A stretch of 64,000 bases of DNA from a virus, in IMG/VR virus record IMGVR_UViG_3300025012_000058, positions 24,302 through 88,301 of that record; one strand, 5' to 3'. Below, one piece after another: positions 42,343 through 64,000 of the stretch; the stretch's first letter is position 1; each line of letters begins with the position of its first letter. Under the pieces are notes generated by a model, which searched no databases, was not told where the DNA came from, and saw nothing but the letters and a program-made list of their open reading frames with translations. A program made the translations under genes and the position numbers.

Positions 42343-42346
42343 TTTG

Positions 42347-42449
42347 TTATTTATAATGAATATAAATTATGGGTATAACTAAAAAATAACTTAAGAAAAA
42401 GTTGTTTTAGAAATATAATTATTATATCTTTATACCAGTTTAAAATTAA
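42347..42449 (+). repeat. 103-bp direct repeat, copy 1
   Basis: This stretch recurs at 63898-64000 with a single difference (A at 42445, G at 63996). It contains a palindrome ATTTATA-N5-TATAAAT (42349-42367), the segment GGGTATAACTAAAAAATAAC, and a promoter-like block at 42401-42436. It fills the 122-base gap before the gene at 42465. The second copy touches the window end, so the repeat may be longer there. Confidence 0.9.
42401..42436 (+). promoter_or_regulatory. Candidate promoter inside repeat copy 1
   Basis: GTTGTTTTAGAAATATAATTATTATATCTTTATACC has TTG and TATATCTTTAT spaced about 18-19 bases. The same block recurs at 63952. It would start transcription about 25 bases before the ATG at 42465. 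The palindrome at 42349-42367 lies just upstream, where an activator or repressor could bind. Confidence 0.6.
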
Positions 42450-42464
42450 AAATCAATCAATAAA

Positions 42465-59276: not shown

Positions 59277-59290
59277 ATTAGTTCTTTGAC

Positions 59291-59330
59291 AAGATCATCA
59301 ATAGTGAAAAATTTGAATTATTGATATCTT
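59291..59330 (+). repeat. Inverted repeat/hairpin in insert left end
   Basis: AAGAT-C-ATCAATA pairs with TATTGATATCTT (12 pairs, one bulged C) around a 15-base loop. No T-run follows. It sits between the phage-type promoter and the first insert gene. The rest of 59236-59406 shows no gene. Confidence 0.6.
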
Positions 59331-59406
59331 ATTGTTAGCAATAACGAAGTGGCGTTTTAATGTTTGTTAATGGTGAAAATAGCACTGTTTTAAACTAAAA
59401 GATGAA

Positions 59407-59619
59407 ATGAAAACAGAAAAATTCAAAAAGTTTTGGGTAGTAGAAGTAAACAACTACCTGTACGATGCTGCCTATGATGGGAAAGCGTTAAAAGAAAAGC
59501 ACCTATTCCCATCATTCAGAAAGTTCCATTTTATAAGAAGCTGGGACGAGTTGAAATACTTTACTAAACGAAAAGAAATAACGAATGAGGAACTTGTTAA
59601 GCGAGCGTTGGCGGGTTAA
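59407..59619 (+). CDS. Small insert protein 1, unknown
   Basis: The 70-residue protein is basic with many aromatic residues (KFWVVEVNNYLYDAAYDGKA, FRKFHFIRSWDELKYFTKRK). A short strand-strand-helix layout seems likely. It is the first gene of the insert, with the ATG about 130 bases behind the phage-type promoter. Its function is not known; small accessory proteins of mobile regions are often defence or counter-defence factors, but nothing in the sequence shows this. Confidence 0.5.
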   Translation: MKTEKFKKFWVVEVNNYLYDAAYDGKALKEKHLFPSFRKFHFIRSWDELKYFTKRKEITNEELVKRALAG

Positions 59620-59656
59620 TTTTATTACTTATATCGGTAGGGATTTTATCCGTATT

Positions 59657-59712
59657 ATGTTATGTGGTGTGTCAGCTTTGAGCGTGAAGCACGTTTTAAT
59701 GGCACATAACGT
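59657..59712 (+). repeat. Inverted repeat/hairpin between insert genes 1 and 2
   Basis: ATGTTATGTG (59657-59666) pairs with CACATAACGT (59703-59712), ten pairs with one G-U, around an inner weaker stem (GCTT/AAGC). It lies 37 bases after gene 1. The 161-base gap 59620-59780 contains no gene. The site lacks a clear GTTRRRY end, so it is not counted as attC-like with confidence. Confidence 0.6.
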
Positions 59713-59780
59713 TGCGGAATTTGATCCGTTTTTTTAGTGGCATTTGGAACACGAATTTTAATTAACAGATAAAAGTAAAT

Positions 59781-60254
59781 ATGGAAAACGAAATTAACAA
59801 CACAGCAGAAACCGCCACTAAAAATATGGTTTCAAATTTAGTGTTAGCGGATAGTAAAAATGGGCTAACTCCAATGCTCTTTGAATTGGGATGGGGATGG
59901 TATGAAGATTGGAGTTATCACCTATTTATCCATTTCGGAAAAACGCAAGAGCAATTCAAAGAAGATGTAAAATTGCTTCTTGTAAAATACGGAAAGGATT
60001 ATTTAAAAAGCGAAAAGAGCTGGGCGGGTGCGAATGGCTGGGTGGATTTCGTTGCCGATAAAATGTCTGAACTTGGCTACCAACCAATAAAGCCAATTAG
60101 TGAAAGTTTTTTTGGTGCATACATAATTGAAGGCAATGAAAGCGATGATAAGGAGTGGGGTAAAGTTGTTGGTGAGGAACTTTTACAAGAAGCAATTTTA
60201 CACAATAATAAAGTGCGTGAGGAAATGGATAATAGGAACGATGAAGCCCAATAG
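59781..60254 (+). CDS. Small insert protein 2, unknown
   Basis: The 157-residue protein is acidic and Trp-rich (ELGWGWYEDWSYHLFIHFGK, EKSWAGANGWVDFVADKMSE), probably alpha/beta, with no signal peptide or membrane segment. Its start follows an A-rich stretch and its stop lies 14 bases before an attC-like site, as expected for a cassette gene. Family unknown. Confidence 0.55.
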   Translation: MENEINNTAETATKNMVSNLVLADSKNGLTPMLFELGWGWYEDWSYHLFIHFGKTQEQFKEDVKLLLVKYGKDYLKSEKSWAGANGWVDFVADKMSELGYQPIKPISESFFGAYIIEGNESDDKEWGKVVGEELLQEAILHNNKVREEMDNRNDEAQ

Positions 60255-60268
60255 CCCATTTTTATTTC

Positions 60269-60353
60269 CGCTAACGGACGAGCATTGGCGATGTGCCTTT
60301 GCTTCCCTAAAAATAAAAACGGCAAAGGCATATTGACCAATGCTATGTTAAGT
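60269..60353 (+). other. attC-like site 1 (cassette recombination site candidate)
   Basis: The 85-base element has an outer pair CGCTAAC (60269) and GTTAAGT (60347), the latter matching GTTRRRY. Two inner stems are AGCATTGG/CCAATGCT and GTGCCTTTGC/GCAAAGGCAT (with one G-U), around a 19-base loop. Size, order and position between ORFs fit an attC. The first box matches RYYYAAC only partly. A plain hairpin cannot be excluded. Confidence 0.45.
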
Positions 60354-60390
60354 GTCAGTTTGATTTTGCCATTAATTAAAAAAATATGCT

Positions 60391-60687
60391 ATGAGTAAAA
60401 TGAAAAAACAAGCAATGTTATCAGCACTCGGAATTATGGGGGCAATGATGCTACCAGAAAATGAAAGAGAGGCACTAATGAATTTCGACCCAAAAGAAAA
60501 GCCGATACTTTATTTGCCCCCAAGAGAATATCAGCCAACAGGAACGAAAGCATATTTTTTTAATTCTTCTGGCGAATTTTCTACTACGAAAATGTTAAGG
60601 ACGGAGTGCATATTCAAATGTTACGCAATAAACGATAAGAATGCAAAACGCAAATTCGCCAAATGGCAAAAATCAAATTGCACTTAA
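60391..60687 (+). CDS. Small insert protein 3, unknown
   Basis: The 98-residue protein starts 37 bases after the attC-like site. It has a short helical N-terminus (MLSALGIMGAMMLPENEREA) and a strand-rich basic remainder (LYLPPREYQPTGTKAYFFNS, KFAKWQKSNCT). The N-terminal stretch is weakly hydrophobic but too polar for a clear membrane helix. No family recognised. Confidence 0.5.
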   Translation: MSKMKKQAMLSALGIMGAMMLPENEREALMNFDPKEKPILYLPPREYQPTGTKAYFFNSSGEFSTTKMLRTECIFKCYAINDKNAKRKFAKWQKSNCT

Positions 60688-60734
60688 CGTTGACTTGCTT
60701 TACTTAGTTTTTTAACCGATTAGATACCGAAAAT

Positions 60735-60992
60735 ATGAAAACAGAAATAGAATTTTTAGAACAAATAAAAAATGAGTTTGCAACTGCCGAATACGGAGAG
60801 GGAATATCATTTAACCTTAATGAAATAGTAGGAACGATAAATGATAGGATAAGGCAGGTTAAAAAATTGAGTAAAGCAAATGTTATAAAATCGGTTTGCG
60901 ACCAATGCCGATTTAAAGCAGAATGTAGATTTAAAGAGATGAATACCGAACAGAATTGCAAATATTTTATTGATGAGCAAACTGTTTTATAA
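60735..60992 (+). CDS. Small insert protein 4, Cys-rich C-terminus
   Basis: The 85-residue protein has a helical N-terminal half (EIEFLEQIKNEFATAEYGEG) and a C-terminal segment with SVCDQCRFKAECRF and NCKYFID, four Cys arranged as in a small zinc or iron-sulfur site. The ATG follows an A-rich leader typical of Bacteroidota genes. Function unknown. Confidence 0.5.
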   Translation: MKTEIEFLEQIKNEFATAEYGEGISFNLNEIVGTINDRIRQVKKLSKANVIKSVCDQCRFKAECRFKEMNTEQNCKYFIDEQTVL

Positions 60993-61069
60993 CGATGGCG
61001 GTGTAGTAACTGGTGCAAACGAAATGATGAAATGAAACACAACAGTAATAATTAATAAAACTTTTAGCG

Positions 61070-61420
61070 ATGGGATTAAGTCCGTTTTCAAGTTCTTGTT
61101 CTGATAGTTCAAGAACTATTATTCAAGAAAAAATTGTGTATAAACAATTACCAAATCCAAACCCAAATAATTACAAAATATTTAGGGAAAAATCAATTGG
61201 TAAATATTTATTAATTGCAGTAAATTACCCCGATTGCAAAAATTACGAGGGTAATAAAATTTTGCTTTTTGAAAATGTAACAATGCAACAACTAAAGAAA
61301 CAAAAATTAGTTGACCCGCATTTCTCTGACAATGCAAAATTTTACTCACCAATTGCAAGATTTGAACCTACTGAAAAAGGATGGGAAATGGCTTTAAAAT
61401 TAATCGAAACTAATAAATAA
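61070..61420 (+). CDS. Small insert protein 5, unknown
   Basis: The 116-residue product begins MGLSPFSSSCSDSSRTIIQE. A Cys at residue 10 after a short Ser-rich segment is reminiscent of a lipid-attachment site, but no hydrophobic stretch precedes it. The middle and end are strand-rich (YLLIAVNYPDCKNYEGNKIL). It overlaps nothing and lies four bases before the next gene, so both may be one unit. Confidence 0.45.
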   Translation: MGLSPFSSSCSDSSRTIIQEKIVYKQLPNPNPNNYKIFREKSIGKYLLIAVNYPDCKNYEGNKILLFENVTMQQLKKQKLVDPHFSDNAKFYSPIARFEPTEKGWEMALKLIETNK

Positions 61421-61424
61421 AAAT

Positions 61425-61793
61425 ATGGAACAATTATTATTACACTTATTCGGAGATTTCATAGTTCAAAATGACTATGTGGCTTTAAATAAAAAGAAAA
61501 ATACTTTAAAGGGATGGATTTACTGCACATTCCATTGTATAACCTATGCTTTACCATTTCTTTTAATAACGAATTGGAAAGCTGTAATTGGTATTGGAGC
61601 AAGCCATTTTCTTTTTGACAAAACTAATATTGTTGCATATTTTTTGAAATACAGAAACCGAGTTAAAGACATTTCAAATTTTGGGTTTTTACCTGAAAGA
61701 CCTTTTGCAATTACGATTTGGTTATTGATTTTTACCGATAACACATTTCATTTATTATGCAATTATTTTTTTATTTATTTTTTTAGAGCGTAG
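61425..61793 (+). CDS. DUF3307-like membrane protein
   Basis: The 122-residue protein starts with LLLHLFGDFIVQNDYVALNK and carries WIYCTFHCITYALPFLLITN, a layout I associate with DUF3307: an aspartate-containing first helix (HLFGDFIVQ), then hydrophobic helices near 29-48, 50-66 and 93-118. HFLFDKTNIVAYFLK near 65-79 is also typical. DUF3307 proteins are integral membrane proteins of unknown function found in Bacteroidota and phages. It lies inside the foreign insert, so it may act in the host membrane. Confidence 0.55.
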   Translation: MEQLLLHLFGDFIVQNDYVALNKKKNTLKGWIYCTFHCITYALPFLLITNWKAVIGIGASHFLFDKTNIVAYFLKYRNRVKDISNFGFLPERPFAITIWLLIFTDNTFHLLCNYFFIYFFRA

Positions 61794-61830
61794 GCAAAAA
61801 AGATTTTTTAATTAAAATAAAAGAATAACA

Positions 61831-61998
61831 ATGGAAACGAAATCAAAATGCTGCAATGCAACTTACAAGTTATCTGACGATATGATAATAAAAGGCATTC
61901 CAGTTTGCGATGAATGCCATAAAATATGTGTGATAATTGAAGGAGTTGTAAAATTAACAGAACCCCAAATATTAAAAGCAAGAGCAAATTTGCAATAA
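61831..61998 (+). CDS. Small Cys-rich insert protein 7, 55 aa
   Basis: This frame of 55 codons has three Cys groups: SKCCNATYK near residues 5-13, PVCDECHK near 24-31 and ICVIIEG near 32-38. The pattern CC...CxxC...C suggests a zinc knuckle. The ATG follows A-rich sequence and the stop is nine bases before the second attC-like site. Function unknown. Confidence 0.5.
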   Translation: METKSKCCNATYKLSDDMIIKGIPVCDECHKICVIIEGVVKLTEPQILKARANLQ

Positions 61999-62007
61999 TT
62001 ATTAATT

Positions 62008-62096
62008 TTTTAACTAAAAATTCGTATGCTTGTAAAAAGTGTAAAACTTGGTGGGCAAACTGATTGCTAACACATGCATAAACATAACTGTTAGGT
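62008..62096 (+). other. attC-like site 2 at right border of the insert
   Basis: The element has outer boxes TTTTAAC (62008) and GTTAGGT (62090), the latter a full GTTRRRY match, and inner arms TATGCTTGT and ACATGCATA (eight of nine paired). A shorter inverted repeat, CTAACA/TGTTAG, is nested nearby. Its 89 bases are close to site 1. Phage-like sequence resumes immediately after. The inner pairing is weaker than in site 1. Confidence 0.4.
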
Positions 62097-62121: not shown

Positions 62122-62202
62122 ATGAACCAGAATACTTCTAAGCCACAAGAGTTCAAAGACTACAGAAATCTATACTCATGTAACTCCAAGTTTGTTCAAT
62201 AA
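62122..62202 (+). CDS. Possible 26-aa peptide or gene remnant
   Basis: An ATG opens a 26-codon frame with phage-like codons (QEFKDYRNLYSCNSKFVQ at its end). It stops 12 bases before the helicase ATG. In another frame, the sequence just behind attC-like site 2 reads LLGESIELYKFYEPEYF then stop. Both could be the tail ends of phage genes cut by the insertion. It is too short to be sure. Confidence 0.25.
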   Translation: MNQNTSKPQEFKDYRNLYSCNSKFVQ

Positions 62203-62214
62203 AGTTAAGCCACC

Positions 62215-63891
62215 ATGTTGAAAACAGCCCTCGAACGAAAAAACAAACTTGTATTGTCATTCCCTTATGACAAGTTCATTGTTCAAGCTCTATCTCCAAT
62301 CAAGAGAAAAGAGTACAAGCCAGCAAAGAAAGAATGGGTTATAAGTTTATGTCAAGATAACCTAGAAGAAGTTTTAGACTTTCTTAAAGATCAAGAATTT
62401 GAAATACAAGAGTCTGCCTTAATTCTAATTGATTCAGTTAAGCAGCTATCTATTCAACAAGATAAGAATCTCCTCCTATCCCAAGCTCAGGATAGTGACT
62501 TTCAAGTCTTTGAACTCAAAGGAGAGTTAAGATCGTTTCAAAGAGCTGGAATAGAGTATGCTGTCATAAATAAACGTGTGTTGATTGGAGATGAACAAGG
62601 GTTAGGTAAAACCATTGAAGCTATTGGAGTAACTCAATCAACTCATGAACTTCCTGTACTTGTAATTTGTATCAATACTCTTATCCCAAACTGGGTTAGA
62701 GAGTTTCAGTCATGGGTGAACTTTGATGTTAAGCCTGTTTACTTTGATTCTGAGTTTCCAGAACAGTTTGAAGTGATTGTGATGAATTATAACAACACAA
62801 AGAAGTTTCTTGAAAAATTAATTACAATTCCGTGGAGAACAATCATAATAGATGAATCACATTTATTAAAATCTACTCAAGCACAAAGAACAAAGTGTGT
62901 TACAAAGATTGTTAACAAGACAGATCCACCTTACATAATGGAGTTAACAGGAACATCTTCACCTAATAAGCCCTCTGAACTTATCCCTCAGCTTTCTTTG
63001 CTTGGTGTGTTAGATAGAGACTTTGGAGGCTGGATGAACTTTGTAACTAGATATTGTGGAGCTTTCAGAGATCGTTTTGGTTGGAATATTTCAGGTTCAT
63101 CTAATTTAGAAGAACTTCATGAAAGAATGAGAAGAAGCTGTTACATAAGAAGAAGTAAGAAAGATGTACTTAAAGAACTACCTGACAAACAGTATCAGCT
63201 CCTTGAGATCAACCTTTCAAATAAGAAGAAGTACAAAGAGGCAGAACAAGACTTTCTTACGTATATTGAAAAGCTGGCACATCAAGATGTAGAAAAAAAG
63301 AAAGATTTAAAGGGTTTGTCTGAAGAAGAAAAGAAAAAGATTAAGAAGAGACATATTATTAATATACTAAGAACTGTAGAAAAGGCAGAACAGTTAGTAA
63401 AACTTGGTCATCTACGTAGGTTGAGTATAGAAGGGAAAGTAGATGATATTATAGAATGGGTAGAGAGTTTTCTTGAATCAGGTGAAAAATTAGTTCTCTT
63501 TGGAGTTCATACCAATGTTATTAATCTCATTTCAGAATACTTTCAATGTAACAAGATCACAGGAGATGTAAAAGTAGAAGAGAGACAAAAGACTGTTGAT
63601 GACTTCCAAACTAACCCAGACACAAAGCTGATAGTGTTGAATTATGAAGCTGGTGGGGTAGGAATTACATTGACTGCTTCCTCTCATGTTGGACTTCTGG
63701 AGCCTCCTTGGACACCCTCCTCCTTATCTCAAGGGGTTGATCGTCTTCACAGGATAGGACAAAAGAATTGTGTGAATGTTTACAGGTTTGTAGCCAAAGA
63801 TTCTATTGATGAATGGGTGTATGAATTACTTCAAATAAAGCAAGTTATTACTTCTCAAGTGAATGAAGGCGAACAGATTCTTCTATTCTAG
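62215..63891 (+). CDS. SNF2-family helicase (SMARCAL1/HARP-like layout)
   Basis: The 558-residue protein has an N-terminal region with YKPAKKEWVISLCQDNLEE, then the SF2 core. Motif I is IGDEQGLGKTIEAIG near 123-137, DESH (for DEAH) near 213-216, and motif III LTGTSSPNKPSELI near 242. A second RecA-like domain has NYEAGGVGITLTASSH near 477 and LSQGVDRLHRIGQKN near 503-517. SNF2-type helicases remodel DNA forks or displace proteins; phage versions act in replication or repair. The N-terminal segment resembles the HARP-like beta region. It follows the insert by about 120 bases, without a clear promoter. Confidence 0.85.
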   Translation: MLKTALERKNKLVLSFPYDKFIVQALSPIKRKEYKPAKKEWVISLCQDNLEEVLDFLKDQEFEIQESALILIDSVKQLSIQQDKNLLLSQAQDSDFQVFELKGELRSFQRAGIEYAVINKRVLIGDEQGLGKTIEAIGVTQSTHELPVLVICINTLIPNWVREFQSWVNFDVKPVYFDSEFPEQFEVIVMNYNNTKKFLEKLITIPWRTIIIDESHLLKSTQAQRTKCVTKIVNKTDPPYIMELTGTSSPNKPSELIPQLSLLGVLDRDFGGWMNFVTRYCGAFRDRFGWNISGSSNLEELHERMRRSCYIRRSKKDVLKELPDKQYQLLEINLSNKKKYKEAEQDFLTYIEKLAHQDVEKKKDLKGLSEEEKKKIKKRHIINILRTVEKAEQLVKLGHLRRLSIEGKVDDIIEWVESFLESGEKLVLFGVHTNVINLISEYFQCNKITGDVKVEERQKTVDDFQTNPDTKLIVLNYEAGGVGITLTASSHVGLLEPPWTPSSLSQGVDRLHRIGQKNCVNVYRFVAKDSIDEWVYELLQIKQVITSQVNEGEQILLF

Positions 63892-63897
63892 CCTTTC

Positions 63898-64000
63898 TTA
63901 TTTATAATGAATATAAATTATGGGTATAACTAAAAAATAACTTAAGAAAAAGTTGTTTTAGAAATATAATTATTATATCTTTATACCAGTTTAAAGTTAA
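63898..64000 (+). repeat. 103-bp direct repeat, copy 2, at window end
   Basis: It is identical to 42347-42449 except for one base. The palindrome at 63900-63918 and the promoter-like block at 63952-63987 are conserved. The repeat runs to the last base of the window, so its right end is not visible. By analogy with copy 1, a gene probably starts just beyond. Confidence 0.9.
63952..63987 (+). promoter_or_regulatory. Candidate promoter inside repeat copy 2
   Basis: Same block as at 42401-42436 (GTTG, then TATATCTTTATACC). It points out of the window to the right and probably drives the next gene. Confidence 0.6.

Follow-up and report, generated by a model that had tools for sequence, protein, structure and literature searches.

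Seven small genes, all on the plus strand, lie between positions 59407 and 61998 of a 64 kb stretch of phage DNA, referred to here as the window, which comprises bases 24302–88301 of an 88.3 kb virus record (IMGVR_UViG_3300025012_000058). The window encodes a portal-like protein, a head protease, a major head protein, a tail sheath, a terminase, a DNA polymerase and UvsX, as in a tailed phage, and its long ORFs all share one strand. The record has both its ends in common with a 28.8 kb contig (99.99–100% identity over the overlaps), which leaves ~6 kb in between, and the genome size is therefore probably near 94 kb. Close relatives lacking the insert were not found; apart from the overlapping contig, which is from the same phage, the relatives of its RNase H and helicase are only ~30% identical. 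Here and throughout, contigs are called viral on the basis of their IMG/VR assignment.

No function has been assigned to orf1 (59407..59619, 70 aa), orf2 (59781..60254, 157 aa), orf3 (60391..60687, 98 aa), orf4 (60735..60992, 85 aa) or orf7 (61831..61998, 55 aa), and searches of Pfam and NCBIfam returned no function for orf1–orf5 or orf7. The product of orf5 (61070..61420, 116 aa) belongs to the phrog_13501 family, with relatives in huge phages, and that of orf6 (61425..61793, 122 aa) is a DUF3307 membrane-type protein that is common in phages. Among the cassette loci that we collected, a relative was found for only one of the window genes, orf2, and the huge-phage loci that carry homologues of orf2 and orf5 had no nearby array and at most one weak site.

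The gaps between the first four genes carry long hairpins. An unbiased scan of the entire 64 kb, on both strands, for a stem enclosed by TAAC and GTTA placed three distinct plus-strand sites at the top, namely hairpin 1 (59707..59846, stem score 42.5), hairpin 2 (60272..60350, score 48) and hairpin 3 (60685..60885, score 48). The next site scored 31.5, and the best stem in 40 dinucleotide shuffles of the entire window scored 34.5. Hairpin 2 ends with GTTAAGT at 60347. Hairpin 3 is an inverted repeat with a 23-bp stem and a 139-nt loop that contains the start of orf4, and the loop of hairpin 1 likewise contains the start codon of orf2. Both orf2 and orf4 read from the loop through the 3' boundary of their hairpin into the cassette that follows. 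Further upstream, a degenerate hairpin-like leader, GTTAGCAATAACGAAGTGGCGTTTTAATGTTTGTTAATGG (59335..59372, plus strand), was read by eye and received no site score in the scan; compared by eye with the 49-bp cores of other sites, it has the CGTTTTAATG loop in common with the commonest phage attC.

The original prediction, made from the letters alone, had proposed that the phage contains a small array of cassettes, and in this it was right: the short same-strand ORFs, the hairpin-bearing gaps and the cassette-like ends are all confirmed. Of the two attC-like sites that it named, the one at 60347 does mark the 3' boundary of a hairpin, while the other, GTTAGGT at 62090, lies outside any hairpin, just 5' of the recombinase remnant described below. 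Two further hairpins were overlooked because their loops contain the start codons of orf2 and orf4. It had also held that the sites needed a proper attC model, and such a model recovers part of the array. Trained on 33 sites from other phages and run over the 64 kb, our covariance model ranked 60268–60354 first (31.7 bits, E=3.4e-4) and 59703–59850 second, the latter being marginal (19.7 bits, E=0.12) and followed by a noise-like match at 19.1 bits; hairpin 3, with its 139-nt loop, was missed. Folding as single-stranded DNA gave z=-4.4 for 60265–60357 and z=-2.6 for 60681–60889, and z=-0.8 for 59703–59850, which by energy alone is not significant. A search of Rfam with the insert region reached no family threshold.

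Four units on the plus strand can be delimited in the window: an ORF-less mini-unit (59659..59710, ends GTTATGTG and CACATAAC), the orf2 cassette (59843..60275, GTTAGCGGA and TCCGCTAAC), the orf3 cassette (60347..60688, GTTAAGTG and CACTTAAC) and a unit with the 3' part of orf4 (60882..60993, GTTATAAAA and TTTTATAAC). The two ends of each unit are reverse-complementary over 8–9 nt, as expected if each had formerly been a circle sealed at the site that it carries, and the strict GTTRRRY consensus is kept only in part. No hairpins are recognisable at orf5–orf7, which follow the last clear cassette end (60993) and precede the recombinase remnant, and these three may be ordinary phage genes.

The orf2 cassette provides an apparent instance of exchange between phages. 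Only one close relative of orf2 was found in the viral collection (89% amino acid identity), in locus L006, which belongs to a 31.8 kb contig; in this locus, about a dozen small genes with hairpins of the same type between them are followed by the gene for a 267-aa tyrosine recombinase. The two sequences share an ungapped block of 436 bp at 92% DNA identity (window 59842–60277, L006 2450–2885), running from TGTTAGCGG to CTAACGG. Homology stops at both cassette boundaries; the flanks are unrelated and the contigs otherwise different, so the unit appears to have been exchanged as one block. Since the pair has no flanking hairpin in common, units can also turn up without their hairpin.

The absence of an integrase, on which the original prediction relied, has to be revised. 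A profile of phage recombinases, run against all six frames of the phage, gave a single significant match, at 62126..62218 on the plus strand (hmmsearch E=2.2e-8; next match 0.9). It covers the last 27 residues of the recombinase (LLSHKSSKTTEIYTHVTPSLFNKVKPP), including the catalytic-Tyr motif, most of the gene being lost, and is also detected by tblastn (63% over 27 aa, E=5e-5). Just upstream lies a putative degenerate attI, ATTGCTAACACATGCATAAACATAACTG (62063..62090, plus strand). Its position fits, and the spacing between it (62063) and a start codon (62122) is correct, but its alignment to intact loci is no better than that of a random control, and we regard it as a weak candidate. With three hairpins and only a remnant of a recombinase, the insert qualifies as a CALIN, that is, at least two attC sites with no functional integrase nearby. 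The remnant follows the array immediately and shares its strand, which is the order seen in intact phage loci, and the insert is thus best interpreted as a dead representative of a phage system. We consider it highly probable, from these comparisons, that the insert derives, through decay, from an integron-like platform encoded by phages and its cassette array.

Intact members of this system are found in other phages. Our recombinase search yielded 242 viral loci; we kept 80 and scanned 78 for sites. On the recombinase strand, 358 hairpin sites lay upstream of the recombinase and 14 downstream, with more sequence scanned downstream than upstream. A conserved attI-like site, nnTAACTATTATATAT, was present in ~70 of the 78 loci, usually 47–57 bp before the recombinase gene, where it would mark the point of cassette entry. 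Recombinase-bearing contigs reach ~464–465 kb, and a terminase occurs on the same contig as the recombinase in four records of 100–464 kb. The recombinase itself is broken in several contigs, so decay of the kind seen here is not exceptional.

The sites of these phages resemble integron attC sites, with conserved structure and varied sequence. In the hairpin family, 96.4% of cells are paired, double changes occur at 15 of 17 stem pairs, and covariation is 0.636 versus 0.158. The cassettes have matched ends of the RYYYAAC/GTTRRRY type around a TAAC/GTTA core; beyond the core, the 4-nt ends are fully matched in 214 of 286 cassettes (mean 3.2, versus 0.95 when shuffled), and the same comparison made within hairpins gives a mean of about 1, like shuffled ends. 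Exchange at attI is visible in pairs of loci whose identity is 95% or more over the stretch that spans attI and the recombinase. Of the 19 such pairs, nine, belonging to five separate groups, have unrelated DNA directly 5' of attI, with the break no more than 2 bases from TAAC. Because loci that match at 95–100% across attI and the recombinase have cassettes that are unrelated and start precisely at attI, the phage system looks active and cassettes still seem to be exchanged.

The gene and its hairpin are inherited in a polarity of their own. Among 435 distinct cassettes, we compared homologous pairs that lie in differing surroundings; the upstream hairpin alone was kept in ten cases, the downstream one alone in one, both in two and neither in five, against a background of like hairpins of 5%. 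The upstream hairpin is therefore inherited with the gene, which makes the cassette a hairpin plus the gene that follows, and the side that joins attI is the 3' end of the gene. In 413 of 419 phage cassettes, the gene is sense to the hairpin pattern, and 34% of the genes start within the hairpin. Phage cassette genes thus read toward attI, whereas integron cassettes read away from it and have attC at the gene's 3' end. A Pc promoter at attI would face away from the phage cassette genes. The TATATTTG and TACCTTTG motifs of the hairpins and leaders are strand-biased.

The architecture, the conserved attI, the boundaries, the exchange at attI, the linkage of hairpin to gene and the remnant can all be read directly from the comparison of loci, and they suggest how the platform would work. 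In its working form, tandem cassette genes, each preceded by a hairpin (attC), share one strand with attI and the recombinase, and the array ends at an attI-like site, usually 47–57 bp 5' of the gene for a Xer-like tyrosine recombinase. We infer that this recombinase is the catalyst and that single-stranded DNA is the substrate: folded hairpins would be joined to attI and to one another, and cassettes could be captured beside the recombinase, lost, or swapped between phages within one cell. The window phage would have lost its recombinase gene except for approximately the last 27 codons, and with this near-total loss its array would be frozen.

The R, K, HxxR, H and Y positions that are conserved among tyrosine recombinases are all retained in the phage recombinase, which resembles XerA, XerD and IntI, with XerA/XerD-type proteins as the best curated family and fold matches. 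From the K to the HxxRH motif, it has 59 residues, compared with 64–65 in its Bacteroidota relatives, 70–73 in XerD types and 106 in two integron integrases. The additional domain near patch III that is the defining mark of IntI (PMC9668308), an insert of 36–47 residues, is missing from the phage enzyme; this insertion is incompletely conserved within the integron-like subgroup (PMC8138268). In our tree, the phage recombinases form one group (support 99/100) together with a single bacterial sequence, L218, in whose genome a phage-type attI adjoins the recombinase. Across 396 Bacteroidota genomes, the attI pattern was roughly as frequent as in the control, except beside a single phage-type recombinase.

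The alternative that fares best among those we weighed is the origin favored by the original prediction, in which a chromosomal integron of the host put the cassettes in at a secondary site and the phage never had a system of its own. Bacteroidota chromosomes do carry the same hairpin pattern beside related recombinases (~40% identity), and no intact tyrosine recombinase was found in either the record or the overlapping 28.8 kb contig. Against such an origin stands the remnant of a phage-type recombinase in the expected place and orientation. Moreover, the exact pattern of the commonest hairpin is mainly viral, with 94 viral stretches against 8 in 84,980 bacterial and archaeal genomes, and the nearest relative of a window cassette is on a viral contig that has a recombinase too. 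Genes in the Bacteroidota chromosomal arrays are antisense to the hairpin in 15 of 17 intervals; compared with them, the phage genes, which are sense, are flipped with respect to the att sites. We therefore consider a host origin unlikely. The related recombinases and chromosomal arrays would, in turn, point to Bacteroidota as the hosts of these phages.

It could also be argued that the insert is an ordinary accessory region, with hairpins that are terminators or due to chance and a recombinase match that is the leftover of an unrelated integrase. One hairpin is indeed weak by energy, and relatives of orf5 and orf6 occur in ordinary phages. Yet stems like those of the array are absent from shuffled sequence, and the matched ends, the block exchanged with L006 and the geometry of sites and recombinase are left unexplained, which makes this reading very improbable. 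Equally improbable is that the cassettes are dif-like modules moved by the host XerC/XerD while the phage recombinase has another role: attI has a short, AT-rich core, the recombinase is Xer-like and the pdif modules of Acinetobacter offer a precedent (PMC7399989), but the phage arrays strictly track the phage recombinase, and their sites are long hairpins, varied in sequence but conserved in pairing (48–250 nt, directly oriented on one strand, 405 versus 15) rather than the short, conserved, inversely oriented duplex pairs of pdif/Xer modules.

Integrons have been regarded as a bacterial device and, recently, as an archaeal one too, and the phage integron cases reported to date are, to our knowledge, captured pieces. 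The phage platform shares with integrons the tandem small genes, the covarying hairpin sites between them, the matched ends and a tyrosine recombinase beside the attI at which new cassettes appear. It differs in the recombinase without the IntI insert (59 versus 106 residues from K to HxxRH), in genes that read toward attI with the hairpin 5' of its gene, and in being phage-borne. It differs from XerA/XerD-type recombinases in that the phage enzyme goes with hairpin cassette arrays and not with a chromosomal dif site. The atypical integrons of Treponema (PMC3607928) and the Bacteroidota arrays likewise have recombinase and cassette genes on one strand, and the Bacteroidota chromosomal recombinases also lack the IntI insert. 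There, however, intI is transcribed toward attI and the genes away from it, whereas in the phages the recombinase is transcribed away and the genes toward.

Attachment-site arrays in virulent phages have been described before. Qi et al. (2023, PMC9892861) report 17 CALINs in phages, with attC sites usable by IntI1, including one site of the Polaribacter phage P12002L that recombines with IntI1 in Escherichia coli. We find that P12002L carries sites of the hairpin family seen in our phages. The phage CALINs are described there as captured host pieces, and a dedicated phage recombinase, an attI and inverted cassette polarity are not among the features reported in the parts of the paper accessible to us. 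Nor did we find a description of a phage-owned recombinase with attI and inverted cassettes in the literature searched, in which preprints and subscription journals were thinly covered. From the comparison of loci, we think it likely that a distinct class of integron belongs to phages, among them huge ones, and has a Xer-like recombinase lacking the IntI insert, its own attI, inverted cassettes, start codons and perhaps promoters in the hairpin, and a gene pool exchanged among phages.

If this is true, a phage-owned platform would explain how small accessory genes are swapped one by one, with base-pair precision, among large phages, and the IntI-specific domain would seem dispensable for an integron-like array. 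Methods that require this domain would be expected to overlook the phage system. Whether a short Xer-like enzyme is able to act on hairpin sites could now be tested directly. The attI and hairpin together also offer a search handle for a large pool of uncharacterised phage genes, DNA methyltransferases among them. In a sample of 100 cassette proteins, most are uncharacterised; ~5 matched DNA methyltransferase families, which suggests that the pool may include anti-restriction functions and that cassettes may help phages to adapt. Single matches in the same sample were to exonuclease, RNA ligase, PARP, acetyltransferase and phosphatase families.

A relative of the phage recombinase, an Xer-like tyrosine recombinase without the IntI-specific insert, is present in 75 of the 297 genomes covered by the Bacteroidota search. 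One Bacteroidota genome carries a recombinase of the phage type (G154:C1:249132-249911; L218/L248), with a phage-type attI, the conserved site that precedes the recombinase gene in viral loci, 41 bp upstream. No hairpins were detected at this locus, which is perhaps a prophage. On Bacteroidota chromosomes, integron-like arrays adjoin recombinases lacking the IntI insert at loci L103, L252, L255, L262 and L263. Further afield, Acinetobacter plasmids encode a tyrosine recombinase (search matches H102-H111) that is approximately 50% identical to the phage enzyme, over 82% of the length, and a 635 kb uncultured huge phage contains four consecutive attC-like hairpin sites of the same family (L272; LR745206.1, 584403-596452).

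Among the viral loci, the Bacteroidota promoter-like motifs TATATTTG and TACCTTTG show a gene-strand bias in the hairpins and cassette leaders. The gene orf2 (59781-60254) contains a perfect 22-nt inverted repeat (59966-59987 and 60181-60202), with its arms 193 nt apart, which is retained in the relative at the viral locus L006. A perfect 17-nt inverted repeat (60374-60390 and 60549-60565) spans the start of orf3 (60391-60687). Read by eye, GTTAGCAAT (59335-59343) and ATTGCTAAC (62063-62071) form matched ends around the entire 2.7 kb array; these may reflect chance or a nested insertion.

The final 126 bp of the record (window 63875-64000) are repeated approximately 6 kb further along the overlapping 28.8 kb contig of the same phage, and the assembly of the record probably broke at this repeat. 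A 110-bp portion of it is also found near 42343-42452.
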